Source: an uncultured Gammaproteobacteria bacterium | GTDB lineage: Bacteria > Pseudomonadota > Gammaproteobacteria > DRLM01 | DNA: 42,890 nt | Assembly: GCA_947259075.1 (NCBI GenBank) | Contig: CAMYKQ010000044.1 | Span: 1-42,890, forward strand | Direction: 5' to 3' | In this document: piece by piece, positions 2,041-36,707 of the stretch | Position numbering within the stretch: position 1 is the stretch's first letter | How the letters are laid out: each line of letters opens with the position of its first letter | Made by a program: the position numbers and the translations under genes | Notes under the pieces: generated by a model | The model's database searches: none | What the model was told of the DNA's origin: nothing | Seen by the model: only the letters and a program-made list of their open reading frames with translations

Positions 2041-2196
2041 TGATGTGTCGCGGCCATCAGGAAACGCTTCGCCCCCCTGTGCGAATCGACCTCGGTCTCG
2101 CGACGTTGATTCCTTTTGCCGCGGACGTCCCGCGTCCACCCCGAGGCGCTACTTCGCAGTGCAATCACGGCCACCACAATGACTGACGCCGCTTCG
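2041..2196 (+). repeat. Dispersed ~155-bp repeat, copy A
   Basis: This segment aligns over its whole length with 22180-22336 (copy C). Both start with the identical 15 bases TGATGTGTCGCGGCC, share a GATTCCTTT block followed by CCGCGTCC, and share GGCCACCACA followed by a CCGC-rich end. Copy B (2315-2473) is the same element inverted. All copies are intergenic in this polysaccharide locus. There is no transposase or evident terminal inverted repeat, so it may be a non-autonomous or structured RNA/DNA element. I do not recognise the family. Confidence 0.75.
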
Positions 2197-2314
2197 CGTC
2201 TATCGCGGGCTTCTCGCCTTCGCTTCGTGGCGCGTCGCGGGAGAAAAGGGCAAGGTCACCTGTTTATTGACGGCGCGCCACGGAAAGCACGGTGAGGGAG
2301 AGAACCCCCGTGGT

Positions 2315-2473
2315 CGACGCCTAACGTCATCAGCCCGTGGGGAGCTAGAACCGATGCGCGGTGGCGTATCGTGGCGAACGCAGCGCATCCGGGGTGAAAA
2401 AAATCAGGGTCACAGCTCCGGGGCGGTTTGCACACGGATGCGCGCTTCGCTCCCTGAGGGCCGCAACACATCG
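2315..2473 (-). repeat. Dispersed ~155-bp repeat, copy B (inverted)
   Basis: Read on the minus strand this starts GATGTGTTGCGGCCCTC, one change from copy C, and continues with a GATTTTTTTCACCCCGGA block and GCCACCGCGC, which match copy C in order. Together with copy A it makes an inverted pair separated by about 120 bases. The copy is more diverged than A or C at its far end, so its boundary near 2315 is approximate. Confidence 0.65.
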
Positions 2474-2610
2474 TATTGAGCTTTCAATGAGCCCCGGCAC
2501 AAGGCTAAAAGATCATTACATGTGCAGCAAGGTGGTAACCCTACGCACTGCCAGTTAGAGAAACTGCTAGAACATCGGCGCTCGTCATTGATGGGAACGC
2601 CATCTCCGCG

Positions 2611-3702
2611 CTAGACGCGTCCGCCCTGTGATTCAACGACACTCGCTGCCGCGGTTGTGCCAGGAATAATACGAGCCGTTTCTTTTCCAAGATAGCTTAA
2701 GGTCCACATGTAAACCACGAAGAGCCCCAAAAAGCCGATGAACATCACGCCGTCGGTCAGCCCATAACTATGACCAAGTATTCCAATAACGGCCAACACC
2801 AGCGCCAGCAGCCAGATCACCATCACGGTTTGCTGCACCGAAAGCCCTTTCGTGAGCAAGATATGGTGCAAATGCTTCCTGTCCGCGGAAAACGGTGATT
2901 TACCCGCCACCATGCGGCGCACAATCACCGCGATGGTGTCCATGAGGGGCACGGCAAAAATCCACAAGGCGATCACCGGATGCATGATCCGCGCATCCCC
3001 TTGCGAGAAATCAATTAAAAACCGCGCAATCACAAAGCCGAGGAACAGGCTGCCCGCATCGCCCATAAACACCTTGGCCTTCTTGCACCAGGGGCTGCGC
3101 GCGTTAAACACCAAGAAACCCGCGACAGCCGCCATCAATACCAGCAGCGCATCCAAATCCCCAGTAATCCCAGACTGATTGGCCAAAAAGGCAAGCGATG
3201 CTAGGGTGATAAGGGCAAGTCCACCAGCCAGCCCATCCAAGCCATCGGACATATTCGTGGCGTTGAGCACGCCCACCGTACAAAAAATTGTGAAAGGGAT
3301 CGCAAACACGCCCAAAGACAGCAGACCGCCATAGGCAAGCCAGCCTAAATCCTGCAAGGCAACCCCGCCCACCAGAATCAGCAAGAGCGCCGCAACGATT
3401 TGCGCGGGAACACGCACCCGCTTGCGCATTTCTCGCAGATCGTCCAGCAAACCCACGGTAAGCAGCAAAAGCCCGCCGATAATCAGGGCAGGAAAACGCA
3501 GCCAAGAATCGTCCAGCAGAGACATCCCGACCGCAAACCCGCCAAACATAGCCAGCCCACCGACAAGGGGCACACAGCCCTCATGGCGTTTGCGGCAATC
3601 GGGCTCATCCACCAAGCCAATCCGGCATGCCATATTGGGTAGAACGTGCACCAAGCACATCACTACGACGATGACCATCAGCGCAATAAAGAATACCCCC
3701 AC
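2611..3702 (-). CDS. wecA: WecA-type undecaprenyl-phosphate HexNAc-1-phosphate transferase
   Basis: A 363-residue polytopic membrane enzyme of the MraY/WecA/TagO superfamily. It starts surface glycan synthesis by transferring a HexNAc-1-phosphate (GlcNAc-1-P in WecA itself) from its UDP donor to undecaprenyl phosphate on the cytoplasmic face of the inner membrane. Family motifs are in order: DEP (32-34), PLVGGL (45-50), the Asp pair at 87-88, NATNMSDGLDGLAGG (147-161), MGDAGSLFLG (213-222) and HLHH (277-280). About ten hydrophobic segments are visible. The start is GTG at 3702, with AGAGGA eight bases upstream. The exact sugar cannot be read from sequence. The gene lies between the glycosyltransferase run and manC, consistent with a Wzx/Wzy-dependent pathway. 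Confidence 0.92.
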   Translation of the reverse strand: MGVFFIALMVIVVVMCLVHVLPNMACRIGLVDEPDCRKRHEGCVPLVGGLAMFGGFAVGMSLLDDSWLRFPALIIGGLLLLTVGLLDDLREMRKRVRVPAQIVAALLLILVGGVALQDLGWLAYGGLLSLGVFAIPFTIFCTVGVLNATNMSDGLDGLAGGLALITLASLAFLANQSGITGDLDALLVLMAAVAGFLVFNARSPWCKKAKVFMGDAGSLFLGFVIARFLIDFSQGDARIMHPVIALWIFAVPLMDTIAVIVRRMVAGKSPFSADRKHLHHILLTKGLSVQQTVMVIWLLALVLAVIGILGHSYGLTDGVMFIGFLGLFVVYMWTLSYLGKETARIIPGTTAAASVVESQGGRV

Positions 3703-3878
3703 CGCTCAAATCCTCTTCTGGCAAAAACCTTGTTACATTTCCCTATCGTGCTCAGCCATCGGCACATAGCAGCGTGATCTTTAGACGGTACGCGGATCAC
3801 CATAAACAAACAAAAGGTTACAGCGACTCAGGCGAACAAACAAGCGTGGCGATTGTATATTTGCGGTCCTCCCCTATC

Positions 3879-5069
3879 CTACACCGTGCGGATTACATCC
3901 AGATATTTCCGGATCACAATTTGCTCGTCGAACTCGCGCACCATTTTATCCCGTCCCCGGCAGCCCATCTCATTCCTAGCCTCGGGTGAAAGCCCTATCA
4001 TTCGCATCATCTTTTCGGCCAGTTCTCCTGCATCCCGCACCTGGCACAAAAAACCGTTTACGCCATCATCCACCACCTCTCGGCACCCCACCGTATCGGT
4101 AGTAATGACAGGACGGCTCATCGCCGCAGCCTCTAGCAAGCTGCGAGGAACACCCTCGCGGTAAAATGATGGCAATACAACGCAATCTGCCATCATGATG
4201 TCGACTCGCACATCGTCACTTACTCCAAGGTAATTCACCACATCCTCCTCGACCCAAGATTGCATCTGCTGCCGCGAAATTGCCGCCGGATTCTGCACAT
4301 CCAAGAACCCCAGCAGACAGAATTCAGCGTTGGGGTAGTGCCGCCGTACCTGCCGCGCTGCTTCCACATACTCTCCCACACCCTTGTCCCACAGCATGCG
4401 AGCGATGAGTAGAAAGCGAAACGCCCCCTCTTCTCTCGCAAGCGGGAGAGGCGATGAAGGCAGCCCGTATTTTTCACTTCCGTCGCTTGCGGCAGGACAG
4501 TCAGTGATGAGAATTTCCTTAGCAGCCACCATCGAGAATCGCTTCAGATCGATCCCCGATCCGGGGACACGATCCGTAACTTGTGCTGGTACAATACCGC
4601 TCTCCACAAACAGGCGCCGGTCATCTTCATTCTGGAAGAACACGCGCGCAGAACGAGATAACGCCAGCCGGTACAAACCCCGCACCACATGCGTCAACCA
4701 AGTGCTGCGGATGAACACCGCTCCTAGACCGGCGATATTGTTAACCACAGGAATATCCAAAGCATGGGCTGCAAGCGAACCATATATATTCGGTTTCACC
4801 GTATAGCCTAGAAAGACGGCCGGCCGTTCCCGCTGCAGCAGGCGATAAAAACGCCACAACAACAACATATCCCGTAGAGGGTCAGTACCCTTGTTGTCCA
4901 TGGGGAGTGGCACATAACGGCAACCAAGTTCAGCGAGCCGGAGCGCATATTCGTCGTGCGGCGCAACTGCCACCACTTCATATCCTTCCGCCACCAGCGC
5001 ACGAATCAAACCACTGCGGAAATTCAGAAGATTCCAGGCGGCATTGAGCGCGATCATCACCTTCGGCAT
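3879..5069 (-). CDS. GT4 glycosyltransferase with an in-frame low-complexity insertion
   Basis: A 396-residue GT-B fold glycosyltransferase of family 4, predicted to add a sugar to the lipid-linked repeat unit in the cytoplasm. The C-terminal nucleotide-sugar half shows the EX7E motif (E305 and E313 in REGVPRSLLEAAA). The N-terminal half has AWNLLNFRSGLIRAL and GYTVKPNIYG, typical of CapM/RfaG-like enzymes near O-antigen loci. The start at 5069 gives a one-base TGATG overlap with asnB; a longer frame reaching 5348 would lie inside asnB. Residues about 180-216 have no place in the fold: they separate the SGIDLKRF strand from FRFLLIARMLWDKG, where related enzymes have a short loop. They include SSPLPLAREEG, the translation of a palindromic repeat at 4423-4460. 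Donor and acceptor unknown. Confidence 0.88.
   Translation of the reverse strand: MPKVMIALNAAWNLLNFRSGLIRALVAEGYEVVAVAPHDEYALRLAELGCRYVPLPMDNKGTDPLRDMLLLWRFYRLLQRERPAVFLGYTVKPNIYGSLAAHALDIPVVNNIAGLGAVFIRSTWLTHVVRGLYRLALSRSARVFFQNEDDRRLFVESGIVPAQVTDRVPGSGIDLKRFSMVAAKEILITDCPAASDGSEKYGLPSSPLPLAREEGAFRFLLIARMLWDKGVGEYVEAARQVRRHYPNAEFCLLGFLDVQNPAAISRQQMQSWVEEDVVNYLGVSDDVRVDIMMADCVVLPSFYREGVPRSLLEAAAMSRPVITTDTVGCREVVDDGVNGFLCQVRDAGELAEKMMRMIGLSPEARNEMGCRGRDKMVREFDEQIVIRKYLDVIRTV
4423..4460 (+). repeat. Palindromic repeat-like sequence inside the GT4 coding region
   Basis: The bases CGCCCCCTCTTCTCTCGC, then AAGCGGGAGAGGCG, resemble the intergenic CCCTCTCCC...GGGAGAGGG repeats of this window (24253, 24477, 36708). 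They form a stem of about seven pairs (CTCTCGC with GCGGGAG, one G-T). On the minus strand they are translated in frame as part of residues 205-215 of the glycosyltransferase. Confidence 0.5.
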
Positions 5070-7045
5070 CAGGCCCGCTGCTCCTCTAGCCACGCCTGGA
5101 ACATCAGCACATCCCACAAGTGATACTGCCAATTGCGCCTTCCTGAAAGATGTTCTCTCCATTTCTGCCGAATCGGTCCGGGTTGGAAATAGCCCTCTCG
5201 CTTCAACCGGTCCTCGTCCAATAGATTCTCCGCCCATTCGCGCAACGGGCCGCGCAACCAACCGTCTATCGGAACTGAAAAGCCCATCTTGGTACGCTCG
5301 ATCAATTCCTTGGGTACATATTTGTAGAGCACCTGCCGCAGCACCCACTTGCCTTGTCCATTACGAATCTTCATCGACAGCGGCAAGCTCCAGGCATACT
5401 CCACCACCCGGTGGTCGAGCAGGGGCACCCGGGTTTCCAGACTGACGCCCATGGCGGCGCGATCGACCTTCACCAGGATATCGTCAGGCAAGTAACTCAC
5501 AGCATCGAGAGCCATCATTTGCTCCGAGATGCCCGCAAGGTGTATCGATGGATGACTGACCTGCGTCGGCGGCTCCGTCGCTCCCACCACGATCCGCGCC
5601 GGATCCGGCCAGTGCGAAACGAAGTGGCGGTAAAGCGAAGCGGGACTCGTCGCGGCAAGCACCCCGGCGAGTTTATAGAGCTTGTTGCCGACATCGAAAT
5701 GCCGATGACGCGCCGGCAACAAACGACCCATCAGACGACCCAATCCATCCCAGGCAGCAGGCCGCAGCGCATGAATGCCGTAACGGCCGCTGTGACGAAC
5801 CCAGTCCGGTAGCGCATGGACCCTGTTCCACCAGACATGCGTCAGAAAATAGCGGTTATAGCCGCCGAACAGCTCATCGCCCCCATCTCCCGACAGTGCA
5901 ACCGCCACCTGCTGCCGGGCGAGTTGCGCCACGAGGAAAGTCGGAATCTGGGATGAATCGGAGAACGGCTCGTCATACAACATCGCCAAGCGCGGAATTA
6001 CCGCCAGGGCATCGGCTGGACTGATGTAAAGTTCCGTGTGCTCGGTCCCGAGATGCTGCGCCACCGCCTTGGCGTGCCGGGCTTCGTTGTAATCACCTTC
6101 GTTGAAACCGATGGTGAAGGTCTTAACCGGGCGAGCGGATTGCGCCTGCATCAAGGCCACCACGGTGGACGAGTCCACGCCGCCTGATAAAAAGGCGCCC
6201 AGCGGCACATCCGCCAGCATCTGCCCTTGCACCGCACTTCGCAGCAACGCTTCCAATCCATCAACCGCTGCCGCATCGCCACCCGAAAAAGGGTGTGCAA
6301 CCCCAGACTCGACAGCTGCGGCAAAAGACCAATAAGACGTGGGCTTGGCCAATTCACGAGCGGAAGCCATCGACGCTGCTAGCCCCGCGAGCGGCAGCCG
6401 CAGAAAAGTGCCTGGCGGTAACTTATGAATGCCGCGATAAATCGAATAGGGCACGGGAATATAGTTATGGCGCATCTGTAGCGCCAGCGCGTCACGGTCG
6501 ATCTCGCCCGCAAAGGCGGGATGCACCTTCAATGCTTTTAGCTCCGAGCCAAACAAGAACGTCGCACCCTGCCAGCCATAATAAAGTGGCTTCTCACCCA
6601 AGCGGTCCCGCGCCAGCGTCAGCGCGCGCTCGAATTTGTCCCAGACCGCCAACGCAAACATGCCAACCGCCTTGCGCAACGTCGCCTCGATACCCCAGGC
6701 ATCAAAACCAGCCAGCAGGGTTTCCGTATCAGAGTGACCCCGCCACTGAATGTGAACCTTCTCCTCTGCCAGCGCGGCCCGCAAATCAAGATGGTTATAA
6801 ACCTCGCCATTGAAAACCAGCACAAAGCGGCCGGAGTGCGACACCATCGGCTGATGCCCCGCCGGTGACACATCGAGAATGGCGAGCCGGCGGTGTGCAA
6901 GCACAACCCCCAAATCACCCTCCAGCCACACGCCACCATCATCCGGACCGCGATGAACGAGTGTCTGCGCCATTCTCTGGCCCACATTCCGCATCGTCGC
7001 AGCGTCCATACGGCTGCCCTGCACGAATCCCGCCAAGCCACACAT
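5069..7045 (-). CDS. asnB: Glutamine-dependent asparagine synthase-type amidotransferase
   Basis: A 658-residue class II glutamine amidotransferase fused to an ATP-pyrophosphatase domain. The catalytic Cys2 follows the initiator Met (MCGLAGF). Glutamine-site motifs include HRGPDDGG (31-38), AHRRLAILD (50-58), FNGEVYNH (78-85) and SDTE (105-108). The synthase half has the PP-loop SGGVDSS (287-293), a SGDGGDELFGGYNRY segment and YLPDDILVKVDRAAM. Family reaction: aspartate + glutamine + ATP to asparagine. Inside polysaccharide loci such proteins are often thought to amidate a sugar carboxyl group (uronamide), and the position between glycosyltransferases suggests that here; this is inference. 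Both ends overlap neighbours by one base (TGATG). Confidence 0.93.
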   Translation of the reverse strand: MCGLAGFVQGSRMDAATMRNVGQRMAQTLVHRGPDDGGVWLEGDLGVVLAHRRLAILDVSPAGHQPMVSHSGRFVLVFNGEVYNHLDLRAALAEEKVHIQWRGHSDTETLLAGFDAWGIEATLRKAVGMFALAVWDKFERALTLARDRLGEKPLYYGWQGATFLFGSELKALKVHPAFAGEIDRDALALQMRHNYIPVPYSIYRGIHKLPPGTFLRLPLAGLAASMASARELAKPTSYWSFAAAVESGVAHPFSGGDAAAVDGLEALLRSAVQGQMLADVPLGAFLSGGVDSSTVVALMQAQSARPVKTFTIGFNEGDYNEARHAKAVAQHLGTEHTELYISPADALAVIPRLAMLYDEPFSDSSQIPTFLVAQLARQQVAVALSGDGGDELFGGYNRYFLTHVWWNRVHALPDWVRHSGRYGIHALRPAAWDGLGRLMGRLLPARHRHFDVGNKLYKLAGVLAATSPASLYRHFVSHWPDPARIVVGATEPPTQVSHPSIHLAGISEQMMALDAVSYLPDDILVKVDRAAMGVSLETRVPLLDHRVVEYAWSLPLSMKIRNGQGKWVLRQVLYKYVPKELIERTKMGFSVPIDGWLRGPLREWAENLLDEDRLKREGYFQPGPIRQKWREHLSGRRNWQYHLWDVLMFQAWLEEQRA

Positions 7046-8190
7046 CAGCTTTGTGCTCCACTCACTAAAGAACGATAAAGCTCCTCATATCGCCGCACAA
7101 TCGCCTCCAGCGAATAGCGTTCGATGATACGGGCGCGCGCCCGCGCGCCCAACGCAATCCGCGCATCCGCCGACAGGGCGAGCGCATCGGCAATCCGGTC
7201 CCCCAAGACATCCATGGCGCCTGACCGTGCCACCCAGCCCGTGTCACCCACGATGTCCGCGCAATCCCCCACATCGGTCACCACGCAAGGCACGCCGCAG
7301 GCCATGGCCTCGCCCACCGCATTGGGAAATCCCTCGCCCCAGGACGCGCACACCCCCACATCGAACGCCGCCGTGAGCCGCGGAATATCGTCACGCCGCC
7401 CCAGCAAACGAAAACGCTCCCGCAACGAGCGCGCATCTATCCATGCCGCCAAGTCCGCATTGCTCCACTCGCACCCCGCGCCCACCAAAACGAAATATGC
7501 GTCCGGCTGGCGCTCATGGACCCGCGCGGCCGCGTCTACGAAGCCGCGATGATTTTTTTGGGGATCGAAGCGCGCGACCAGGCCAACCAGCGGTGCATCG
7601 GGCGTGACGTCGACTTCGTCGCGCACGGAGCGCCGCACCTCTTCATCGGGATGAAACAAATCGGCGTCAAAGCCGTTGGGAATGACCGCGAACCGATCAG
7701 CCGAAAAACCCACCGAGCGATGAATCAAGACCGAGTTGAATGAATTACAAATAATCCGCTCGGGTACCAACCGGGACAAAAACCCATTGAGCCGGACCAC
7801 CCATAACGTGTGCGCCTTGTTTTTGTCCGGATCCAGATTGCTATGACGGATATTCCACACCACGTGCCGCACTCCGCTCATCCTGGCGGCGATCCCGCCC
7901 AGCAGATCGGCATGGTACAACCAGGTCTGGACAAGGTGCGGCCGAAAATCACGAATAAATCTCAACAATCGAGCGAAACCCATAAGAGTGAACCGGCCGG
8001 GCCGCATATCGCAGGTCAAAACGGGGATTCCAAGCGACTCAATGCGCTCAGCCATGACGCCACGACCGGTCAGCGAAATCACCATCAGATCGAATCGAGC
8101 CCGATCCATCCCGGCGAGGAGTTTATAGAGCATGGTTTCCGCGCCGCCGGTGTTGAGGCCGGTGATGACATGCAGCAAACGATACCTCAC
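7045..8190 (-). CDS. GT4 family glycosyltransferase
   Basis: A 381-residue GT-B glycosyltransferase. The N-terminus has the GLNTGGAET loop (residues 11-19) usual for GT4 enzymes that act on lipid-linked glycans. The C-terminal half has IPNGFD (170-175), LVARFDPQKN (204-213) and the EX7E motif in WGEGFPNAVGEAMACG (E286, E294). No membrane segment is seen. Start codon GTG at 8190, one base after the stop of the upstream Wzy-like gene, with the downstream end overlapping asnB by one base. Expected to add one residue of the repeat unit. Substrate not predictable. Confidence 0.9.
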   Translation of the reverse strand: MRYRLLHVITGLNTGGAETMLYKLLAGMDRARFDLMVISLTGRGVMAERIESLGIPVLTCDMRPGRFTLMGFARLLRFIRDFRPHLVQTWLYHADLLGGIAARMSGVRHVVWNIRHSNLDPDKNKAHTLWVVRLNGFLSRLVPERIICNSFNSVLIHRSVGFSADRFAVIPNGFDADLFHPDEEVRRSVRDEVDVTPDAPLVGLVARFDPQKNHRGFVDAAARVHERQPDAYFVLVGAGCEWSNADLAAWIDARSLRERFRLLGRRDDIPRLTAAFDVGVCASWGEGFPNAVGEAMACGVPCVVTDVGDCADIVGDTGWVARSGAMDVLGDRIADALALSADARIALGARARARIIERYSLEAIVRRYEELYRSLVSGAQS

Positions 8191-8191
8191 T

Positions 8192-9457
8192 TTATCGATC
8201 GCCCACTCTTAGCACTTTTGCAGACGATTTACCAAAATAGTAGCCAAAGAGCACCCATGCCAAAGGTTGAGTGAATAACTCGCCACTAAATAGACCTTGG
8301 AAATAGAGTGAAAAAATAACTAGAAACGCGGCAACCCATTCGTTCATAGACATGACACGACGCAGCCAAATAACTCTATAGGCAACGTAGGCAAGAATTA
8401 ACAAGTAACACAAAAATCCTTGCATTCCGAAACCGACCAAAACCTGAATATATGCATTATGCGGGTCGGGTGGAATTGACTGCGGAAAGTAAAGACCAAG
8501 ATATTCTGCAACAGCTGGATAAGTAGCGTTACCTACACCCAATGGATATTCGGAAAATATCTCCACCCCATTTTTGATCTGCGCCATCCTCATTTCATTG
8601 GACGATGATCCCTCGCTGGCAGACAACTCGGTTTGATAAATCTTCGATATCTCGCCTTGAAACTGAAACGCTATCGCCAAACTCAATAACAAAACAACGA
8701 CACTTGCAACAAACCCTTTTCGCCCGCGCAGACGTGACAAAAATACGACTAAAGACACCACCAATACATTAATCCACGCCGCCTTGGACCAAGTTAATAG
8801 AGCCGACACCAACATAAGAATTAGAATTACTAACCAGACAATTTTCTTAGCCTTACTAGCATCGTAAAAGTACATGAGCACCAAAGGCAGAAGAACAGAA
8901 ATCGAGATCCCCAATGGATTCTGCCCGGCGAGCGAGATGGTCGTCGAATTTCCGAAAAAGAAATCCAACACATTAAGGAAACACGCCAACACAACCCCAA
9001 ACACAAGCCAAGTTGCAATATCGTACCTTTCGTAGACTCGCGTTATTGCCGCAGTAAATAACACCAAACCCAAGAAAAATACGACACGAAAGAGTGCGCC
9101 CAAGTTACGGGCTGCAAAATCAACATCAAAATAAAACGACACCAGAAAGCCAAACATGCCAGATATTGTTAAGAGCATGCCTGAAATATAAAACAATCGA
9201 TCATGCAACAACAAGGCATGCTCCGCGGCTCTAACATGTCGATAGCCCATGCCCATGTGAATGATTACAACTACCAAGGAAAGCAGGAGCATACCAAAAA
9301 ACACTGGTAGAGCCTGGCTCGATATCGGCAGCGTCATACCAATTCCGAGAAGAACATAGCCTGACGCAATGATCCACTTAACTATAAGTTGAAGGCGAGG
9401 CTGTAGAGCATGAATGTTTACAATTAATTTCTCCCCCTCGCTCACAATAGTATTCAT
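8192..9457 (-). CDS. O-antigen polymerase/ligase family membrane protein (Wzy/WaaL-like)
   Basis: A 421-residue polytopic inner-membrane protein with about ten to twelve hydrophobic segments and one large periplasmic loop at roughly residues 265-330. The loop contains NGVEIFSEYPLGVG and PPDPHNAYIQVLVGFG; the second, with its His-Asn pair, is the hallmark of the Wzy_C (O-antigen ligase) family. Position inside the cluster and presence of Wzz and a flippase favour polymerase (Wzy), but sequence alone does not exclude ligase. It is visibly more AT-rich than its neighbours, as wzy genes often are. The start ATG overlaps the upstream methyltransferase stop (ATGA). Confidence 0.85.
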   Translation of the reverse strand: MNTIVSEGEKLIVNIHALQPRLQLIVKWIIASGYVLLGIGMTLPISSQALPVFFGMLLLSLVVVIIHMGMGYRHVRAAEHALLLHDRLFYISGMLLTISGMFGFLVSFYFDVDFAARNLGALFRVVFFLGLVLFTAAITRVYERYDIATWLVFGVVLACFLNVLDFFFGNSTTISLAGQNPLGISISVLLPLVLMYFYDASKAKKIVWLVILILMLVSALLTWSKAAWINVLVVSLVVFLSRLRGRKGFVASVVVLLLSLAIAFQFQGEISKIYQTELSASEGSSSNEMRMAQIKNGVEIFSEYPLGVGNATYPAVAEYLGLYFPQSIPPDPHNAYIQVLVGFGMQGFLCYLLILAYVAYRVIWLRRVMSMNEWVAAFLVIFSLYFQGLFSGELFTQPLAWVLFGYYFGKSSAKVLRVGDR

Positions 9458-10086
9458 GACATTACCAAAAAGTTATACGAATACCGCCAATCCCAATTAT
9501 GGTACTCATCCAAAATCGAGAACACTTTCTTGATTTCGGCCCGTATGCGACGCAATGGATAACCCTTTGTTCCAATCTCCCAATAATGTTCACCATTGAA
9601 TTTATGCTCTTTCCAAAATAACGGTATACGCACTCTCAGGGTTTTCACGAACAAGGGCTGCACCGCCACTGTCACTTCAGGAACAAGGCACGCGAACGGC
9701 AAATAGATCAACGCATGCCTACCCACGCGGGCAATCTCCTGGCAAGACTTTCCTAAATACTCGAATGGTAAATGCTCCAGCACATGTGAGGCGATGACCA
9801 CGTCGAATTGTTTGTCGTCGAACATTGAAAGATCATCCACGCTCCCGACCACATCCGGCCCAAGCGCCCCGTCAATATCCAGGACGGTGACATCCACTCC
9901 CAAGTGCCGCAGAATGGCACGTTCAAGCCCGACGCCACCACCGATAATCAACACGCGCTGGGGATCGAAACGCAGGCAATCGCGTATCTGGTAACTGGCA
10001 TTGATGAAGCTGGTTAGTCCCAAGCGTTCGCGATAGCTTGCCGCATTGATTTGCACCTTGGGCACGAATGCCGCGTCTTGATTCAT
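9454..10086 (-). CDS. Small class I SAM-dependent methyltransferase
   Basis: A 210-residue Rossmann-fold methyltransferase. SAM-binding motif I is VLIIGGGVGLE (45-55), the acidic motif II residue is in VTVLDIDG, and ASHVLEHLPFE is the post-motif IV segment common to Methyltransf_11/23 proteins. After about residue 125 it has PFACLVPEVTVAVQPLF and an aromatic C-terminus (YHNWDWRYSYNF), perhaps the acceptor site. It overlaps both neighbours by four bases (ATGA). In this context it probably methylates a sugar of the repeat unit or caps the chain. The target atom is unknown. Confidence 0.82.
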   Translation of the reverse strand: MNQDAAFVPKVQINAASYRERLGLTSFINASYQIRDCLRFDPQRVLIIGGGVGLERAILRHLGVDVTVLDIDGALGPDVVGSVDDLSMFDDKQFDVVIASHVLEHLPFEYLGKSCQEIARVGRHALIYLPFACLVPEVTVAVQPLFVKTLRVRIPLFWKEHKFNGEHYWEIGTKGYPLRRIRAEIKKVFSILDEYHNWDWRYSYNFLVMS

Positions 10087-14743: not shown

Positions 14744-15560
14744 CGGCATCTCCAATACATTGCGAAACGGATGCGAACGTCAGGTTCAATTCCCCGGCGC
14801 GATGGATCAAGCCGGCAAGGGTGGCGTGCATCGAAGCATCGTCGCGAAATTCCCAATAGTGCGTGGCCAACACATACGGAGCCTGCCAGCGGGCGTAGCC
14901 ATTGAGCGCCTTCAACAGTTGCTCGTGTCGGACACGGGGAGTAAGCGCATGGGCGCACAACTCGACATGACCGCCATAGCGTAACGGGTAGGGATAGGGG
15001 ACGCCGCGTCGCAGTCGCCACACCCAGCGCTTGAGCCAAGCGGCGGGGTAGTCCACGCTGAATGGCCGGTCACCTCCGCGCCCCATGATCCCCGAGAGGT
15101 TCAATCCCGCCGCCCGGATGGCGCGTATCCCCGATGCGCCAATGGTATTGCTGGGCGGAACGAATACACGGATTCGAACATTCAGCAGGCGCTCGAGGTA
15201 ACTCTTGCCCTCGACGACTTCACGCATCAGCTGGCTTTGCGGCTTCCAGCCGAACTCACCGACCCATTTGCCGTTGATTTGTTTGTATTCGTGCGAATAA
15301 CCGTGAAGCATGATTTCCACCTGGCCGAGCGCGATCTTCTCCTTCAAATAATCTACCAAAGCCGCATTCTCCCCCAGTGGCACTTGTTGATCCGGCGCGT
15401 GCACTGCGGAATGGCTGCGACCCCGATGGGTCGACACCGAGAATGGAACGACGGCGAGCGAGATGGGAACCGTTCCCCAATATCGCCCATAAACAAAATC
15501 CAGGTCTTCCGGCCGGGTGAAGAAAGACGTATCGTCATCTCGAATAGCGAAGCGACTCAT
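14730..15560 (-). CDS. Polysaccharide deacetylase superfamily protein (DUF2334-like)
   Basis: A 276-residue protein of the carbohydrate esterase 4 / DUF2334 type. It begins FAIRDDDTSFF, where the Asp cluster would form part of the metal site. EIMLHGYSHEY near residue 90 supplies the His residues, and RVFVPPSNTIGASGIRAI is the conserved motif-3-like strand. No signal peptide is visible, so it is probably cytoplasmic, unlike secreted chitin-type deacetylases. In this operon a role in removing an N-acetyl group from a sugar or lipid-linked intermediate is likely but unproven. The start at 15560 gives an ATGA overlap with the GT2 gene; the ATG two codons earlier has a poorly spaced ribosome site. 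Confidence 0.75.
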   Translation of the reverse strand: MSRFAIRDDDTSFFTRPEDLDFVYGRYWGTVPISLAVVPFSVSTHRGRSHSAVHAPDQQVPLGENAALVDYLKEKIALGQVEIMLHGYSHEYKQINGKWVGEFGWKPQSQLMREVVEGKSYLERLLNVRIRVFVPPSNTIGASGIRAIRAAGLNLSGIMGRGGDRPFSVDYPAAWLKRWVWRLRRGVPYPYPLRYGGHVELCAHALTPRVRHEQLLKALNGYARWQAPYVLATHYWEFRDDASMHATLAGLIHRAGELNLTFASVSQCIGDADEIR

Positions 15561-16483
15561 GGCCATTGCCTAGTGGCGCGCTGGATGAATAACCAACGGC
15601 GCAAAGCCAGTGGTAGAAACAGCGTGACCGTCAACACAATCGCCTTCATCCGCGTGTTTCGATCCGCCCAGCGGAATGTGGACAATACGGCACACCAGGC
15701 GCGCAGTATCTGCCCAGACAGGGCGGCATACATGGCTTGATAAAGTTGATAGCGACCCAGTTGGCATGGGCAATACTCCAACCAGGCGGCGCGGTGTTCA
15801 TTGATCAATTGGGAAACGGCCTCGGTCATCGAGGCGGAGCGGCGAATGACGGAATGCATGCCGGTAAGGTTGTCACCGGCCGCGCGATGATAAACACGCG
15901 CTGGCCTATGCACGAGCAACGCCGGATGATGCTTGGCAATGCGCCAGTGGCGTATCACCTCGTAACCATTAAACGCCGGCCAAGGGGATATCTTCAGGAC
16001 TTCGGTTTTGTAGATAGGAAAGAACTCGCCCCAATGATTTTTTTCGCAGATATTGTCCGCGTATCCGGTCACCATGCGATCGCGTTCCATGTAATGCAAG
16101 CCTTCCCGCCCTTCACTGTCGATGACGGTGAAGCGGACCAGTCCTATTTCCGCGGGAGCGCTGGCGATTTCGTCCACCATCATCGCCAGTGTGTGTTGAT
16201 CGTGGAGTTCGTCGTCGCTATCGAGAAAGATGACATAGCCCGCCTCGATTTCCCGCTCGCCACGGTTGCGGGCCACATTCACACCCGCGTTCCGCTGATA
16301 CACATAGTGAATCCGTTTGTCGCCAAAATTTTCTACGACGCCGCGGGTATCATCGGTGGAGCCATCATCGACGATGATCCACTGAAAGTCGCCTAGCGTT
16401 TGCTTCCGTAGTGACGCCCAGACGCGGGGCAGCAGGCGGGCGCGGTTATAGGTGGGAGTAATGATGGATACGGCAGGATTCAC
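15557..16483 (-). CDS. GT2 family glycosyltransferase
   Basis: A 308-residue GT-A enzyme. The N-terminal signature VSIITPTYNRARLL is followed by IIVDDGSTDDT (nucleotide-binding Asp at 39-40) and by the metal-binding motif FLDSDDEL (87-93). The C-terminal part has a hydrophobic stretch (AIVLTVTLFLPLALRRWLF, residues about 280-300) that may be a membrane anchor. Start codon is GTG at 16483, in a GTGA overlap with the flippase stop. It is the first transferase gene of the coupled run. Sugar donor not predictable. Confidence 0.9.
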   Translation of the reverse strand: MNPAVSIITPTYNRARLLPRVWASLRKQTLGDFQWIIVDDGSTDDTRGVVENFGDKRIHYVYQRNAGVNVARNRGEREIEAGYVIFLDSDDELHDQHTLAMMVDEIASAPAEIGLVRFTVIDSEGREGLHYMERDRMVTGYADNICEKNHWGEFFPIYKTEVLKISPWPAFNGYEVIRHWRIAKHHPALLVHRPARVYHRAAGDNLTGMHSVIRRSASMTEAVSQLINEHRAAWLEYCPCQLGRYQLYQAMYAALSGQILRAWCAVLSTFRWADRNTRMKAIVLTVTLFLPLALRRWLFIQRATRQWP

Positions 16484-17991
16484 CGCGCACCTCGCAGTCC
16501 GAGGATGATGCGGCGCAGGCTGCCGCGCACCAGTTCGCGCTCCCCGCTAACGTAGAAATAGCCACCCGCCAACATCAACACCAATGTCATGAGCAAACCC
16601 ACGAGCAACTGGGCCATTCCGTCGAGTCCCGCGGCCATGCCGGTAAGGTTGAAACCGTAAAGGCCGCCCATCACCACCGTCATCCATGACAGCCACAGCG
16701 CGTGCCGGTGCCAGGCGATGCCGTAACCCAGCCGGGTGACGCCCTGCAAGCCCGAAAGCAGCATGACCCAGTAACTGATGGATGTCGCCAAGGCGATGCC
16801 CCAAATGCCCCAGCCAAAACCAAAAAGAAAAAACGCATTCAAAACGACATTGGTGACCAACCCCAGGATGGTGCGCTTGACCATGAAGGAAATTTTCTTT
16901 TCCACCTGGAACACTTGGTCCAGGACGCCGATGAGAAACATGGGCAGAATCATCAAGGAATATCCCAGTATCGCGGTGGCCACATTAACGGTATCCATGC
17001 GGGTGAACAGCCCACGCTCAAGCAATACTTGCACCATCGCCTGCCCGAAAAGGGCCATGAACACGGTGGCGGCAGTCGAGACGTAGATGCACATGGACAT
17101 GACATCATTCAGTCGAGCACTGCGTTCGGCGACCGTGGCTTTTTCCGCGATGACAGTGATGAACGATCCACCGAGGCTGATGATGCCGGGTAGCAAGGCT
17201 ACCAGGGTCATGCCATAGGCCAAAGCCGAAACAGCCCCTTCCGGCAGGAAGGAGACAAATATCCGGTCGGATAGCACATATATGGAATGCGCCCCATGCA
17301 GGATAAGCAATCCGGGCGCCAGCACGAGGCAGGCCCGTACTTCGGATGAGAATGGGTTGGACAAACGTCCGAGCGAAGATCGCGCTATAAATAAAAGATA
17401 GAGAAAAGACAACGCGACGCCGAGGCTCAATGACCAAAGGAGCACATGGGGATCACCTCTGAACAAAGCAACGCAAATCAGCACAACCAGGGCCGTCAAA
17501 AATTCGGCCTGATAAAAAGCGGAAAAATTTCGAACCGCCCTCATCACCGAGCCGACAAAGCGCAAAGGAATATAGAAGAGCAGCACCGGAATCAGCCAAA
17601 AAAATGCGCTTCTCAACGATTCGATTCTAGCGGCATCGAATCCCATGGCGATTAATGCGATGAAGTCACCAGCGGAATAGATGACGACGGCAAGGACCAC
17701 CGACACTAGAAGACACAGCGAAAGCATGCCTCCGGCTAGTTCACGCAATTGCTGTTTGTCACCTTGCCGCCATAACTCCACCATTCTGGGAACCACCAGC
17801 ACATCCAGGAGACTCGCCCAGGAAAAGATCAAGACACCCAGCAGGGCAAGCGCCATGTAAAAAACATCGAGCTGCGCCGATAGCCCGATCGCTCCGGCAA
17901 TGACGATGTGCTTCAACAAGCCGGATAGGCGATCCAGCCCTTTCCATAGGACGGCGGTACCGATAGAAGACAGAAAAGACTGTGGCTTCAT
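16480..17991 (-). CDS. MurJ/MviN-like lipid-linked oligosaccharide flippase
   Basis: A 503-residue polytopic protein of the MOP exporter superfamily with about fourteen hydrophobic segments. It resembles the MurJ/MviN branch: the opening SIGTAVLWKGLDRLSGLLKH, DVFYMALALLG near residue 42, PRMVELW near 68, and LLERGLFTRMDTVNVA near 328. The cell's essential MurJ is normally encoded elsewhere, so this copy is likely the Wzx-equivalent that moves the lipid-linked repeat unit to the periplasm. It opens the coupled glycosyltransferase run and starts with an ATG overlapping a short upstream ORF by four bases. Confidence 0.86.
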   Translation of the reverse strand: MKPQSFLSSIGTAVLWKGLDRLSGLLKHIVIAGAIGLSAQLDVFYMALALLGVLIFSWASLLDVLVVPRMVELWRQGDKQQLRELAGGMLSLCLLVSVVLAVVIYSAGDFIALIAMGFDAARIESLRSAFFWLIPVLLFYIPLRFVGSVMRAVRNFSAFYQAEFLTALVVLICVALFRGDPHVLLWSLSLGVALSFLYLLFIARSSLGRLSNPFSSEVRACLVLAPGLLILHGAHSIYVLSDRIFVSFLPEGAVSALAYGMTLVALLPGIISLGGSFITVIAEKATVAERSARLNDVMSMCIYVSTAATVFMALFGQAMVQVLLERGLFTRMDTVNVATAILGYSLMILPMFLIGVLDQVFQVEKKISFMVKRTILGLVTNVVLNAFFLFGFGWGIWGIALATSISYWVMLLSGLQGVTRLGYGIAWHRHALWLSWMTVVMGGLYGFNLTGMAAGLDGMAQLLVGLLMTLVLMLAGGYFYVSGERELVRGSLRRIILGLRGAR

Positions 17992-18179
17992 GCGTTTTTG
18001 ATCAAGCCTGCCAAACCAACCATGTATGCAACTACTCTCTCGTCACGATTTGTGGCAAAAGTCACACGTCCGCCATCGATCCCCTGGTTTTCAATCGCGG
18101 CCGGAGAGCTGCATCCAGGCACCTTCGTCTTGCTCATCCGGAGACAGGGCACGACACAGATGTGGTTTCCACCCGCCAT
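17988..18179 (-). CDS. Possible short ORF coupled to the flippase start
   Basis: A 63-residue frame beginning MAGGNHICVV and ending GLAGLIKNA, in the 210-base gap between wzz and the flippase. Its TGA overlaps the flippase ATG by four bases, the same ATGA arrangement used by most genes of this run. I see no known domain. It has no good ribosome site (only AGG one base before the ATG), and the frame stays open further upstream into the end of wzz. It may be a real small protein, a leader that couples translation, or chance. Confidence 0.25.
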   Translation of the reverse strand: MAGGNHICVVPCLRMSKTKVPGCSSPAAIENQGIDGGRVTFATNRDERVVAYMVGLAGLIKNA

Positions 18180-18201
18180 ACCTGGCTTGACGCCGCAATG
18201 T

Positions 18202-19173
18202 TCATCGGGGGAGGTTCTCCGCAGCATTGATGCGCAGCTTTCGTATTGCTGACACCAAAAGCGCGATCATCACAGCCAGGAACAAACCCGCGGCAAAACC
18301 GATCACGACAATGAGCTTGCGCTTGGGTTTGCTTTTCGTTTCGGGAACCACCGCCGGGTCGATGACGCTGAGCGCATATTGATCGCGCGCGCTGGCGAGC
18401 ATGATGTTTTTTGTCTGCGCCTCGATGAGCCGGTAGATGGACTGCTGCATTTCCAGCACGCTGGTCTTGGCAAGCTGATCCTTGAGATAGGTAAGACTCT
18501 TTTCCGCTTCAGAAATCGCTGCCTGTTGTTCATGCTGATTCAAGCGCGCCACCATAATATTGGCCCAGCGCGCCGCTAACTGGGGATCCTCCCACTCGAT
18601 ACTCAATGTAATCAGTCCAGTCTTCTTGTCTTGTGTTATGGAGCGGACACTCCGGTCAAAAACATCGTAGGCTTTACGTATTGTCGGTATATCTTCGGGG
18701 CCTTGGGTTTTCCATCCGCTGCTCTGCACATCCCAAACCTCGGAAAACAAGACCGGCAATAACTTCTCATCCTTAATAAAGGCATCTGTGAAAGCTCGCG
18801 ATCTCATAACCGCAATCGCCTTGTCCGCGGAACTACCACCTGGGGTCATATTTATGCCCGCTATGGATGCGATTCCGCTGAATTCTCCTGCCAGGGCGGA
18901 CAGACGACCACCTTCTTCAGGAGTCACCGGGGCCAGCGTCACTTCGGCGCGGTAAACAGGGGGCATCCACCACGCGACCACCACCGCCGTAACTGTAGTT
19001 ATCAGCGTTATTCCAAAAATTAGCCATTTGTACGAAACCAGCATCCGCCATAGATCAAGCAGGTTGACCTCGTCATCTTCAGAGGATGCGGAGTAAGGCG
19101 CTAGGACATAGTGCACCTGCTGCGGCACGGGCGCGGGATCACTCGGGGACGGCGGTGTATTTTGTGTACTCAT
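18202..19173 (-). CDS. wzz: Wzz-type chain length determinant protein
   Basis: A 323-residue polysaccharide co-polymerase of the inner membrane. It has an N-terminal Pro-rich cytoplasmic tail, then EVNLLDLWRMLVSYKWLIFG leading into the first transmembrane segment (about residues 42-67), WMPPVYRAEVTLAPV just after it, a long periplasmic coiled region, and a second segment near 285-310 (KLIVVIGFAAGLFLAVMIAL). The PETKSKPKRK proline/lysine stretch before it is typical. There is no C-terminal tyrosine kinase domain, so it is the Wzz rather than the Wzc form. The start at 19173 (MSTQNTPP) is 13 bases after the SLBB gene stop; a GTG eight codons earlier would overlap that gene. It should set polymer length together with the Wzy-like protein. 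Confidence 0.87.
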   Translation of the reverse strand: MSTQNTPPSPSDPAPVPQQVHYVLAPYSASSEDDEVNLLDLWRMLVSYKWLIFGITLITTVTAVVVAWWMPPVYRAEVTLAPVTPEEGGRLSALAGEFSGIASIAGINMTPGGSSADKAIAVMRSRAFTDAFIKDEKLLPVLFSEVWDVQSSGWKTQGPEDIPTIRKAYDVFDRSVRSITQDKKTGLITLSIEWEDPQLAARWANIMVARLNQHEQQAAISEAEKSLTYLKDQLAKTSVLEMQQSIYRLIEAQTKNIMLASARDQYALSVIDPAVVPETKSKPKRKLIVVIGFAAGLFLAVMIALLVSAIRKLRINAAENLPR

Positions 19174-19186
19174 TACGGCGTCATTT

Positions 19187-22018
19187 CTATAAAACACCCA
19201 CGGTATTCCACGCCGCGATGGCCAAGCCGAATTGATAAACGATCTGGCTCACGCTGGTCCACAGGGTGAGGGGGCGCAGGCGTTCCACGTCCATGGGCAC
19301 GACGATGGTATCGCCCGGCCTGATATCCGCTTGGCGGCGAAACCAGCCGCTGGATTTACCCGCCATCACCGCGCCATTGGCGCGCACCACATAGATGCGG
19401 TCGTCGTCGGCCTTTTTGGTGGGGCCGCCGCTGAGGTTGACGTACTCATTGCGGTCCAGTCCTTTGCGATAGAGATGCGAGGTGGGGTGAAACACTTCGC
19501 CGATGACGGTCACTGACTGCGTGGCGGCGGGGATCACCAAGGTGTCACCGTCCTTGAGCACCACATCGGCCTCTTTACGTTTGGCGAGTATGGCGGGTAG
19601 GTCTATCACGAGGCGGCCCGCCGCCTTCACCCGGTCCAGCTGCGCGGCCAGGCTGCTCATCACTTGCAACTCTTGGCGTTGTTCGGGATTCGCCTGCGCC
19701 TGTTCCAGACTGAGCGCGGCAATGTCCTCTTGCAGGCGCTGGTGCAGCGCGTCCATTTGCTCTTGTTCGCGCAGGCGCAGTGCCTCGCGCATGAACACCG
19801 AACCGTCGGCATTGGCGAATTCGGTGAGGCCACCCGCGCGGGCAATCGCGCTGCTGAGTGTCTCACCGCGCCGGATGGGATAGGTGCCGGGGAAACGCAC
19901 CTCGCCCATGATCTTGATCTGCTCTTGCTCCCGCCATTGGGGCAGCTCCTTCACGGTGAAACGGTCATGGGGACGCAGCACGAGATCGGCCTCGTGATTA
20001 CCCGCCATCACCTCCGCCATGTTCACGCTTTGGTGTTGAATCTCGCGGTATTCGCCGTTCACTACGCCGTAGCGCGTCAACTCGGCTTCGAGGGTGTAGG
20101 CCGCCTCGGTGAGTTGGCCGCCGGCGCGCATCAGGTCGCTGATGCGCATGCCCTCTTCCAAGGGATATTGGCCGGGAAATTTCACCCGCCCGTCCACGCT
20201 CACGAGCTGGGCCGGTTCACCGGTCTTGGCCTGGCGGTTCAATTCCGCGAACAGGGCCGTGAGGCGGTCATCGCGCTCCGCCGTGCTGCTGAACACCATG
20301 ACCTCGTCTTGCGGTGCCAGGCGCAGATTCGCAATGCTCTGGGGATTCTCACGGGCAAGGCTCAGGTCTATCGAGCGCACGGTGATCTCGCCACTGGAGC
20401 CGCCGCGCTGGCGCTTGACCAAGACATAGTGCAGATCCGTTTCCGGCAAAATGTCCACCGCCGCGCGGATCAAGTCGGTGATACGCATCTCGGGTTCGAA
20501 GGGATAACTGCCGGGATGGCGCACATTGCCGCTCACCGTCACCACCGCCGGGGGCGAATTAAAGCGTGCCTGCAGCTGCAGCTGTTTGATGAGGGGCGCG
20601 ATGATGGCGGCGCGGTCTTCGTCGACGCCGAACACCATCACGTCATCGCGCGCTTGCAGCACGGGGTTCGCAACCGCATCGGCGGGCGCGGCCAGCGCCT
20701 GGCGCAAATCCGCGGAAAACACGCGGATCTCGCGCGCCGGCAACAGCTCGCGCTTGATGAGCACATAATCCAGGTCTGGTTCCGGCAATAAGTCTTTCAC
20801 GGACGGAATGAGATCCGTCAGCCGCATGCCGCCGCGCCACTCAAAACCGCCGGGGCGTTGCGCGTGGCCGGAAAGTTTCACGATGTTTTCCATGCGGTCG
20901 AGCACGGAATAGACCCGCAGCACATCACCGTTGCTCACCGGCGTCGCCAGCATCGCCGGCTCAGTGAGATTAACGTCCAGCAGCGTGCGTTCACGCTGGC
21001 GGGTGATGCGTTCCAATTGCGCGCCTTCGGGATACGCGGTGGACAGCAGACCCCCGCTGAAGCTCAGCACCTCGGCCAGCGTCTTTTCCTGCTTGATCTC
21101 GTAAATCGCCGGGCGCTTCACTTCACCACCCACGCCCACCGTGGCGCCGATGGGCGGCACGAAGATGACGTCGCCCGGTTGCAGGCGGGCGTCGGCGCGG
21201 GTGTCGCCGCGCAGCAAGAGGTCATAAAGATCCAATTGCGTGATGACCTTGCCATTGCGTTTGAGCTGGATATCACGCAAGGAACCGATGGGCCTGACAC
21301 CGCCGCTGACGAATAAGGCATTGGTCATGGTGGAAAGGCCGCTCACCGTGTACGAGCCCGGCTGTTGCACATCGCCCAGCACGAAGATGCGGATGGAGCG
21401 CAGCGGCCCCAAGCTGATATTGGCCTTGACGCCAATCAACTGGCGCTCGACGCGCTGCATGAGATTGTCTTTGAGCTCGGGGAAACTCAGGCCCGCCACC
21501 GACACCGCGCCAAGGCCAGGAAAATTCACACCGCCGTCACGGCCCACCGGCAGGCTGTACTCGGCGTTGTCTTTGCCAAACAGCTGCACCTGTATGGTAT
21601 CGCCGGGCCCGATGATGTATTCCGCCGGCACGGGAATGTCGGTGGCGGGCGCAAAGGTGCTGGGCACACCGGCGAAGAGGTCGTAACCGAACGGCTTGAG
21701 GGCTTGATTGATCTTTTGCTGTGATTCCGGTGGCTCAGCAGCAACGGGCGCATCCACCACGTCACGCGCCTCGGCCTCCATGGCTGAGCTTTGCGGCGCG
21801 GGCCGTGGTTTGACCGTCTCTGGAAATGCGGGCGTGGATTGACTCACACCGCCGCCGCGCTGATTGAACATCTCCAGCGCCTTGGCCTGTTCCGCCGGTG
21901 ACAATTGCTGCAATAACTGACGCTGCTCGGGAGAAAGCTCCACGGCCTGGGCGGCCCAGACACACAAGCACGCGACCACGACAGCCAACGCGCCTCGAAT
22001 AAGACCTCTAGACTTCAA
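19187..22018 (-). CDS. Large multi-SLBB polysaccharide export (OPX/Wza family) protein
   Basis: A 943-residue outer-membrane or periplasmic polysaccharide export protein. A signal peptide is clear (MKSRGLIRG, hydrophobic core, AAQA before VELS); VVAC also makes a weak lipobox. The Poly_export domain is at about 125-215 (YIIGPGDTIQVQLFGKDN). It is followed by about seven SLBB-like units with the repeated core GxVxxPGxYxxxxGxxxxDLI, for example GNVRHPGSYPF, GRVKFPGQYPL and GEVRFPGTYPI. A helical Gln/Glu-rich stretch near 710-780 looks coiled-coil. E. coli Wza is about 380 residues, so this is the extended type. The start is TTG at 22018, supported by GGGAGG nine bases upstream and the basic signal peptide n-region. 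Confidence 0.9.
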   Translation of the reverse strand: MKSRGLIRGALAVVVACLCVWAAQAVELSPEQRQLLQQLSPAEQAKALEMFNQRGGGVSQSTPAFPETVKPRPAPQSSAMEAEARDVVDAPVAAEPPESQQKINQALKPFGYDLFAGVPSTFAPATDIPVPAEYIIGPGDTIQVQLFGKDNAEYSLPVGRDGGVNFPGLGAVSVAGLSFPELKDNLMQRVERQLIGVKANISLGPLRSIRIFVLGDVQQPGSYTVSGLSTMTNALFVSGGVRPIGSLRDIQLKRNGKVITQLDLYDLLLRGDTRADARLQPGDVIFVPPIGATVGVGGEVKRPAIYEIKQEKTLAEVLSFSGGLLSTAYPEGAQLERITRQRERTLLDVNLTEPAMLATPVSNGDVLRVYSVLDRMENIVKLSGHAQRPGGFEWRGGMRLTDLIPSVKDLLPEPDLDYVLIKRELLPAREIRVFSADLRQALAAPADAVANPVLQARDDVMVFGVDEDRAAIIAPLIKQLQLQARFNSPPAVVTVSGNVRHPGSYPFEPEMRITDLIRAAVDILPETDLHYVLVKRQRGGSSGEITVRSIDLSLARENPQSIANLRLAPQDEVMVFSSTAERDDRLTALFAELNRQAKTGEPAQLVSVDGRVKFPGQYPLEEGMRISDLMRAGGQLTEAAYTLEAELTRYGVVNGEYREIQHQSVNMAEVMAGNHEADLVLRPHDRFTVKELPQWREQEQIKIMGEVRFPGTYPIRRGETLSSAIARAGGLTEFANADGSVFMREALRLREQEQMDALHQRLQEDIAALSLEQAQANPEQRQELQVMSSLAAQLDRVKAAGRLVIDLPAILAKRKEADVVLKDGDTLVIPAATQSVTVIGEVFHPTSHLYRKGLDRNEYVNLSGGPTKKADDDRIYVVRANGAVMAGKSSGWFRRQADIRPGDTIVVPMDVERLRPLTLWTSVSQIVYQFGLAIAAWNTVGVL

Positions 22019-22048
22019 GCTGCGGAACCTCCCTGCTCATAATCATGC

Positions 22049-22060
22049 CGTTTGCAAACG
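22049..22060. promoter_or_regulatory. Perfect 12-bp palindrome, possible operator
   Basis: CGTTTGCAAACG is its own reverse complement. It lies 31-42 bases before the TTG start of the SLBB export gene, between the likely promoter area and the ribosome site. This is a plausible place for a dimeric repressor, and the sequence resembles LacI-type half sites only loosely. No second copy was noticed. Confidence 0.3.
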
Positions 22061-22179
22061 CTTCCATAATCGCCATGATTGACCGGGGAAATCTATCACA
22101 ATACAAGCAGATAAAATACCCGGGACCGCGGTTTTTTCAGGTTGGCGGCGGGAGATTACGGCCTGCTGCATGCGCGGTG

Positions 22180-22336
22180 TGATGTGTCGCGGCCCTCGGG
22201 AAACGAGACACATGTCCGCGCGCGAATCGAGCCCGGTCGCGCGACCTTGATTCCTTTCGCCCCGGACCTCCCGCGTCCGTCACGGCACACCACCGCGCGG
22301 CGCATCATGGCCACCACATTGGCTGAGGCCGCTGCG
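22180..22336 (+). repeat. Dispersed ~155-bp repeat, copy C
   Basis: This copy matches copy A (2041-2196) from TGATGTGTCGCGGCC through GGCCACCACA to a CCGCTGCGC end, and copy B (2315-2473, inverted) through CACCACCGCGC. Copies A and C are the closest pair at their ends, while B and C are closest in the middle. So C probably lies nearest to the ancestral sequence. It sits upstream of the SLBB export gene. Confidence 0.75.
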
Positions 22337-22532
22337 CTTTCCGCCGCTCGTCGATGGATATGACGAAGAGAGGATGCCATGAACAGCGGCAAAGCAACAC
22401 CAACGGCAAGTGTTCACCCGCATGGCGTACTCACACGGCCGCGCCGCGAGCCGCGCCACAAAATCAGCATTGCGGCGCTGCTTTTTTCCCATGCATACCG
22501 CTCAGTTGCCTAGCTAAACCTGTTAGCTAAAC

Positions 22533-24191: not shown

Positions 24192-24252
24192 CAACCTCGA
24201 ATTCAGATTAAAAATTGAATCGGCCCTGCGCCAATCCAAACCCCAATCTTTC

Positions 24253-24289
24253 GCCCCCTCTCCCTCCGGGAGAGGGCTGGGGCGAGGGG
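24253..24289 (+). repeat. CCCTCTCCC/GGGAGAGGG palindromic repeat, copy 1
   Basis: The copy is a short palindrome (CCCTCTCCC, TCC, GGGAGAGGG region) followed by CTGGGGCGAGGGG. It matches copy 2 at 24477 almost base for base, and copy 3 at 36708 in inverted orientation. Such elements are common between genes in many gammaproteobacteria. Confidence 0.8.
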
Positions 24290-24395: not shown

Positions 24396-24476
24396 ACCCC
24401 GCCCTTCTCCCCGCGGGAAAAGATACCCTGCGCTCAGTCGCGCTAATCAAAGAAGGCCAGGCGGGCTACTCTCTTC

Positions 24477-24512
24477 GCCCCCTCTCCCTCCGGGAGAGGG
24501 CTGGGGTGAGGG
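24477..24512 (+). repeat. CCCTCTCCC/GGGAGAGGG palindromic repeat, copy 2
   Basis: Nearly identical to copy 1 (GCCCCCTCTCCCTCCGGG, then AGAGGGCTGGGG and TGAGGG), differing at one base in the tail. Same orientation, 224 bases away. Confidence 0.8.
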
Positions 24513-36666: not shown

Positions 36667-36707
36667 ATTTGATGTGGGACATCAATCAAACGACTGGCGT
36701 TATCGAT

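Follow-up and report, generated by a model that had tools for sequence, protein, structure and literature searches.

A 205-bp non-coding mobile element with exact ends and a one-sided target rule in gammaproteobacterial genomes

Results

Three copies of a dispersed repeat in the window

The window, by which we mean the whole stretch of 42,890 nucleotides analysed here from an uncultured gammaproteobacterium, holds three copies of a dispersed repeat (A, B and C) in or beside a polysaccharide locus (423-24152), with genes for a mannose-1-phosphate guanylyltransferase, a wecA-like protein, an XrtA/PEP-CTERM amidotransferase and an EpsE-like export protein. The first-pass annotation had described three related intergenic stretches of ~155 bp without a transposase. 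These are indeed genuine repeats: an end-to-end alignment of all three holds, each lies between open reading frames, and the element is devoid of any coding gene. The unit had, however, been drawn too short at its 3' side, because the full element measures 205 bp, from CGATGTGTCGCGGCC at its start to TTGGCTCGTCG at its end, and the ~155 bp correspond to its first three quarters. The features are as follows.

2041-2237, forward strand: copy A, 197 bp, almost full length, 5' end TGATGTGTCGCGGCC, 3' end GCGTCG; matches positions 2-188 of the 205-bp consensus with 94% identity
2047-2052 (left arm, GTCGCG) and 2099-2104 (right arm, CGCGAC), forward strand: paired arms close to the 5' end of copy A, forming helix 1 of the genus
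2238-2241, forward strand: 3' flank of copy A, CGGG, with G at +4
2271-2473, reverse strand: copy B, full length (consensus 1-205), old and diverged, ~69% identity to the consensus; 3' flank TCAA, without G at +4
22180-22353, forward strand: copy C, 174 bp, both termini kept, internal deletion of ~31 bp near the 3' side
22354-22357, forward strand: 3' flank of copy C, ATGG, with G at +4

Copies A and B are arranged tail to tail, with 33 bp between them. An Rfam search of the window returned no match at the gathering cut-off, and a search with the element at E values up to 10 gave nothing credible. Other repeats are found in the same stretch: CCCTCTCCCTCCGGGAGAGGGC repeats at 24250-24288, 24474-24512 and 36705-36741, a 19-bp tandem repeat at the contig end (1-209) and a 9-bp tandem array (GAACGCTGY) within an ORF region (23956-24108). 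Two other REP-like stretches of the CCCCTCCT type, taken from flanks in a congener and perhaps of one family with the CCCTCTCCCTCCGGGAGAGGGC repeats, have >60 matches in the window's genome.

The element has transposed recently within the genus

When copy C was used to query the window's own 3.10 Mb assembly (G000), 23 matches were obtained, 19 of them at E < 1e-10, the first non-self match having an E value of 6e-30. A 205-bp consensus written from these matches found 35 matches in the same genome, fragments and the window copies included, so that the repeat, as had been supposed, is present elsewhere in the genome, in ~30 copies or pieces. The congener G001 (JAHFRV01, a groundwater MAG) yielded 24 matches to the consensus, among them 11 full or near-full-length copies with 91-93% identity. 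Nine of the G001 copies, compared base by base, differ at 0-7 of 205 positions (mean 3.3), and the copies have identical ends and unrelated flanks. Near-identical copies with the same ends in unrelated surroundings imply recent transposition in this congener. The youngest copies are those of G001; the window's own are mostly older.

The element also occurs in altered forms: shortened copies, the smallest of ~65 bp (L094), retain both termini, and nested and tandem copies occur (L002, L006, L015). A subfamily in G002 (L066, L070, L074) carries a paired insert, CCAGCAAGAGTGAGACAGCCGGA and its inverse further along the element, which gives rise to an extra hairpin. In L012 (G000:C58:9635-9803) the element runs into an apparent S1-repeat coding sequence near a contig end, as a fusion or a truncation.

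Relatives form a wider superfamily

Scanning GTDB genomes for a DNA pattern identified carriers in the congeners JAHFRV01 and CAKKSB01 (from Hainich) and in USCg_Taylor (MUGK01), a MAG of a USC-gamma methanotroph in which many contigs break off within the element. Longer forms were recovered from G039, G020 and G041 by blastn of relatives. Among plasmids, the long form is present in Methylobacter and Methylomonas and an end fragment in Methyloprofundus; in plasmid and phage collections, neither the window's consensus nor that of the long form matched anything other than Methylococcales plasmids. IMG/VR contigs also carry the long form, in two cases within tail-gene regions. The elements of USC-gamma, the Methylomonas and Methylobacter plasmids and G039 have common ends and a common target rule and, over the superfamily, span 205-285 bp. 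CGTC is found at the ends only in the genus and USC-gamma; in the long relatives the terminal sequence is CAGCG.

In the complete genome G039, 154 copies (149 of them full length) lie in the 1.6 Mb read, about half of the genome, which extrapolates to ~330 copies in total. Roughly 53-58 of 144 copies are located inside ORFs that open once the element is removed, and they lie there in both orientations; this fits a genome tolerant of broken genes. To judge by translations, the genes interrupted in the first 1.6 Mb apparently include mqo, dprA (twice), cheA, nosR and a haemagglutinin-like gene (three times). Intron-like or in-frame behaviour was considered for G039 and rejected, because gene insertions occur in both orientations (31:22) and the lengths of sense-oriented copies are not biased to multiples of three. 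A separate observation is a 1.85-kb stretch, 99% identical and with the element, in G020 and G041 (L056, L057), genomes assigned to two families, which suggests transfer or a binning error.

Insertion is exact and follows a one-sided target rule

Interrupted genes show the exactness of insertion. Within a gene for a PD40-repeat lipoprotein of G001, taking out 205 bases restores the frame (...LYLAEPNF^SPDNKTLL...). A RAYT gene of the same genome is interrupted by copy L073 (G001:C3:121-325). When the sequences on either side of this copy are joined, their alignments to two homologues in the window's genome contain no net gap (195 and 177 bases, on both sides). The RAYT gene of the USC-gamma MAG (L114) carries two copies of the element, and removal of the first, from CGTTTG... 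to ...CGTCG, restores ...RRPFR^LDAVVVLPDH..., a join that was read by eye. No target duplication or loss was seen in any of these three interrupted genes. Terminal alignment of the copies revealed no terminal inverted repeats either; the two ends share only CGAYG. RAYT genes are interrupted in three lineages (L073 in G001, L114 in USCg_Taylor and L209 in G039, at C1 near 3163757), twice in one gene; such interruptions may reflect dispensable targets rather than preference.

The 3' flank obeys a simple rule. Among the 36 distinct flanks of genus copies, G occupies position +4 in 33 (p = 1e-14 against 0.30 expected) and is never found at +5. The corresponding figures for G039 are 139/144 and 4/144, and the +4 G is kept in most of the USC-gamma flanks read and in nearly all Methylomonas plasmid copies. 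The target rule is therefore one-sided, NNNG followed by a base other than G, which on the opposite strand amounts to insertion 3' of DCNNN. The flank at the 5' end follows no rule in the genus. Ahead of GGGG in G039 the bases are mostly YC, and the left boundary, as placed by frame restoration, varies: most joins are consistent with YC inside the element, and a minority are not. The terminal tetranucleotide of this other end is not conserved between lineages.

A subterminal hairpin is maintained by compensatory changes in the long form

The first-pass annotation had looked to compensatory base changes for support, and these were found. They are clearest in the long form, at the end that adjoins the target-rule flank, where ten sequences chosen by hand were examined for a structure that the analyst had named, a procedure that favours it. 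Six of the nine pairs of this subterminal hairpin changed on both sides and none on one side only, with 98.9% pairing; 0 of 500 shuffles reached the same covariation, and slid controls were paired to at most 49%. That compensatory changes keep the hairpin is thus shown for the long-form relatives only. All of its changes are two-sided and pass through no G-U intermediates in the ten sequences, and a DNA hairpin accordingly fits at least as well as an RNA one.

In the window's own family the target-side hairpin is weak (only ~3 bp). Five named stems of the genus include 10 pairs changed on both sides, versus 5.2 in shuffles (3/500), with a covariation score of 0.129 versus 0.106 (0/500) and slid controls paired to at most 46%. 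Helix 1 is paired in 93% of cells over 22 genus copies, with one pair changed on both sides. RNAalifold predicted little structure from the genus alignment.

Orientation follows replication in G039

Copies in G039 are oriented according to GC skew, whose minimum is near 570 kb: the ratio is 46:13 to one side of this point and 14:81 to the other (p = 3e-15). The strand starting CGCTGA lies mostly on the G-rich strand, that is, on the lagging-strand template, an orientation that has been described for IS608 and ISDra2 (PMC6006769). Orientation shows no bias relative to contig GC skew in G000 (10:7) or G001 (7:7), and the replication evidence therefore cannot be extended to the genus of the window.

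Search for the mobilizing enzyme

Of the enzyme families searched that leave no target duplication, Y1 alone was found in the complete genome G039, in the form of RAYT-type genes. Y2_Tnp had no match in G039 or in G002 (75% complete) and matches, mostly fragments, in G000, G001 and G033; the IS110 transposase (PF01548) had no match in G039 or G002. No Y1 match was obtained in G001 (96% complete), where an interrupted RAYT relic lies at a contig end. An autonomous element with these ends was found neither in the 1.6 Mb of G039 read nor on the Methylomonas plasmid.

Several candidate partners were rejected. Y1 loci were scanned in seven genomes, and none had these ends or a flanking pair of copies. 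The RAYT gene beside a G039 copy (L209) is itself interrupted by the element, and the repeats that accompany the intact RAYT gene at 687302 are REPs of the ordinary GTAG type and not the element; the Y1 genes of G039 are either RAYT-type with other repeats or broken. Split copies on the Methylomonas plasmid, which might have been autonomous forms, owe their insert to a group II intron: its reverse-transcriptase ORF lies inside a copy on CP157006.1 (148533-150844), and a second copy near 164356 has the same left junction (L377-L378). A tnpB gene 70 bp downstream of a Methylobacter copy seems to be part of a separate insertion sequence, and an IS200 gene near the Methyloprofundus end fragment is ~1.5 kb away, with a replication-protein-like ORF in between.

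Discussion

What kind of repeat is this? Three options had been put forward at the outset: a non-autonomous mobile element, a structured RNA or a protein-binding element. Tens of copies with shared ends, in this genome and in relatives, near-identical recent copies, clean gene insertions and compensatory changes support the first of these. Mobility, precise ends, the target rule and insertion without target duplication or loss are direct observations. Exact insertion without duplication, a one-sided target, near-end hairpins and the lagging-template orientation in G039, taken together, point to single-strand transposition by an HUH enzyme. We envision a non-autonomous 205-bp element that encodes no protein and would be moved as single-stranded DNA by an HUH/Y1-type transposase, a reading that we prefer and to which we give an even chance. 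Such an enzyme, supplied in trans, would excise and insert the element by reading a short flank together with its subterminal hairpins, in the manner of IS200/IS605 elements and archaeal PATEs, and the active strand would be the one starting CGACGAGCC (CGCTGA in the long relatives). Against such an enzyme, which we infer at about even odds, stand the failure to find an autonomous partner, the REPs that the intact G039 RAYT has for itself and the lack of a Y1 match in G001.

The closest parallels bear on this proposal. Like IS200/IS605 elements such as IS608 and ISDra2, the present element is free of target duplications, has a one-sided target and subterminal hairpins and, in G039, takes the lagging-strand-template orientation (PMC6006769). 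Unlike them, it contains neither tnpA nor tnpB, and no autonomous relative was found; its target is essentially one fixed base, looser than the known tetranucleotides, with no tetranucleotide guide shown. With respect to insertion, the one-sided DCNNN rule was observed, and the replichore bias is present in G039 and absent in G000 and G001. The palindrome-associated transposable elements (PATEs) of Haloquadratum likewise lack terminal inverted repeats, have palindromes near their termini, cause no target duplication, are too short for a transposase and form core-deletion derivatives (PMC3119063). Near-terminal palindromes are strong in the long form, whereas in the genus the stem lies near the other end (helix 1) and the target side offers ~3 bp. 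PATE ends are related to those of known IS605-type transposons, whereas none with the present ends was found at the Y1 loci of seven genomes, about half of G039 having been read; moreover, the present elements are bacterial, 205-285 bp long and governed by the one-sided DCNNN rule. The element may well work like a PATE and is a candidate member of that group. REPs, REPINs and BIMEs associated with RAYTs (GTAG- and CGTC-tagged) are also dispersed, non-coding, hairpin-bearing and presumed to be moved in trans, and the genus ends carry CGTC (PMC3733652, PMC3116915). REPs, however, are single hairpins of 20-40 bp, as opposed to multi-hairpin elements of 205-285 bp, the long relatives end in CAGCG, and RAYT genes are here interrupted by the element instead of being flanked by it (PMC3733652).

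Might the mover belong to an enzyme family hitherto unlinked to such repeats, one that makes no target duplication and requires one or two bases of flank? The absence of partners with matching ends (in 1.6 Mb of G039 and on the Methylomonas plasmid), the Y1 genes of G039, which are RAYT-type with other repeats or broken, a target rule looser than that of known Y1 elements and the lack of replication bias in the genus all speak for it, but the combination of end hairpins, a one-sided target, no duplication and, in G039, an orientation on the lagging-strand template is what Y1 elements display (PMC6006769, PMC3119063), and we hold this alternative to be rather unlikely. Also rather unlikely is the idea that a widespread gammaproteobacterial superfamily is moved by a hitherto unlinked single-strand transposition enzyme. 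This enzyme would recognise the covarying hairpin and, needing a single fixed base (DCNNN), accept nearly all targets, and ~330 copies could thereby build up in one lineage, many of them inside genes.

A derivative of a rolling-circle element (IS91/Helitron-like, Y2 HUH), acting on the strand first read, with a terminal hairpin and cleavage before NNNG, would explain the 3' flank requirement, the subterminal hairpin at the same end and the absence of duplication, and Y2_Tnp matches, mostly fragments, exist in G000, G001 and G033. Known IS91 targets are a specific tetranucleotide, however, and neither the complete G039, with its ~330 copies, nor G002 (75% complete) has a Y2_Tnp match, which makes this origin improbable.

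Bacterial MITEs such as ERIC, NEMIS, RUP and QpRS1 are similarly short, non-coding and present in tens to hundreds of copies, but they carry inverted repeats at their termini and are usually bordered by target duplications, neither of which is seen in the element. That it arose as a classical MITE does, by deletion from a DDE insertion sequence whose ends are inverted repeats, is very improbable: high copy number and internal-deletion derivatives that keep both ends (~65 bp in L094) would suit such an origin, yet exact gene joins without duplication and ends that share only CGAYG contradict it. Equally improbable is the spread, by selection and not transposition, of a sequence that acts as a functional RNA or binds a protein. 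The strength of the folding and the compensatory changes are in keeping with such a sequence, but as the cause of the spread it is contradicted by near-identical, exact-ended copies in unrelated flanks and by gene-breaking insertions in both orientations. The suggestion of a structured RNA survives in part, in that the element is strongly structured, although no RNA function appeared in anything tested; there is room for a secondary RNA or protein-binding role. HEARO, which is in Rfam, is a standalone structured mobile element of similar length, but the element gave no HEARO match in the Rfam search at E values up to 10. The least probable route is an RNA copy made by a group II intron or another reverse transcriptase, for although the lack of duplications, the replication-linked orientation in G039, a possibly structured transcript and the intron in two Methylomonas copies might favour it, both ends are precise, 149 of 154 G039 copies have no 5' truncation, no conserved 5' exon-type target exists and the intron has itself been inserted into the element.

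The element bears on a standing puzzle, that of small repeats that make no target duplications and have no known transposase. The SMRs of Haloquadratum have been called enigmatic (PMC3119063), and CGTC REPs have been reported without a dedicated transposase (PMC3733652). The superfamily accounts for the interruption of genes in its carriers and for places where contigs break in assemblies, USCg_Taylor among them, and relatives of the element have jumped, at times hundreds of times, through many gammaproteobacterial genomes. Because the superfamily has carriers in cultured genera (Methylomonas, Methylobacter) as well as exactly placed ends, copies of recent date, a covarying end hairpin and a target rule that is sharp at one base, the question of what moves it is open to direct testing.
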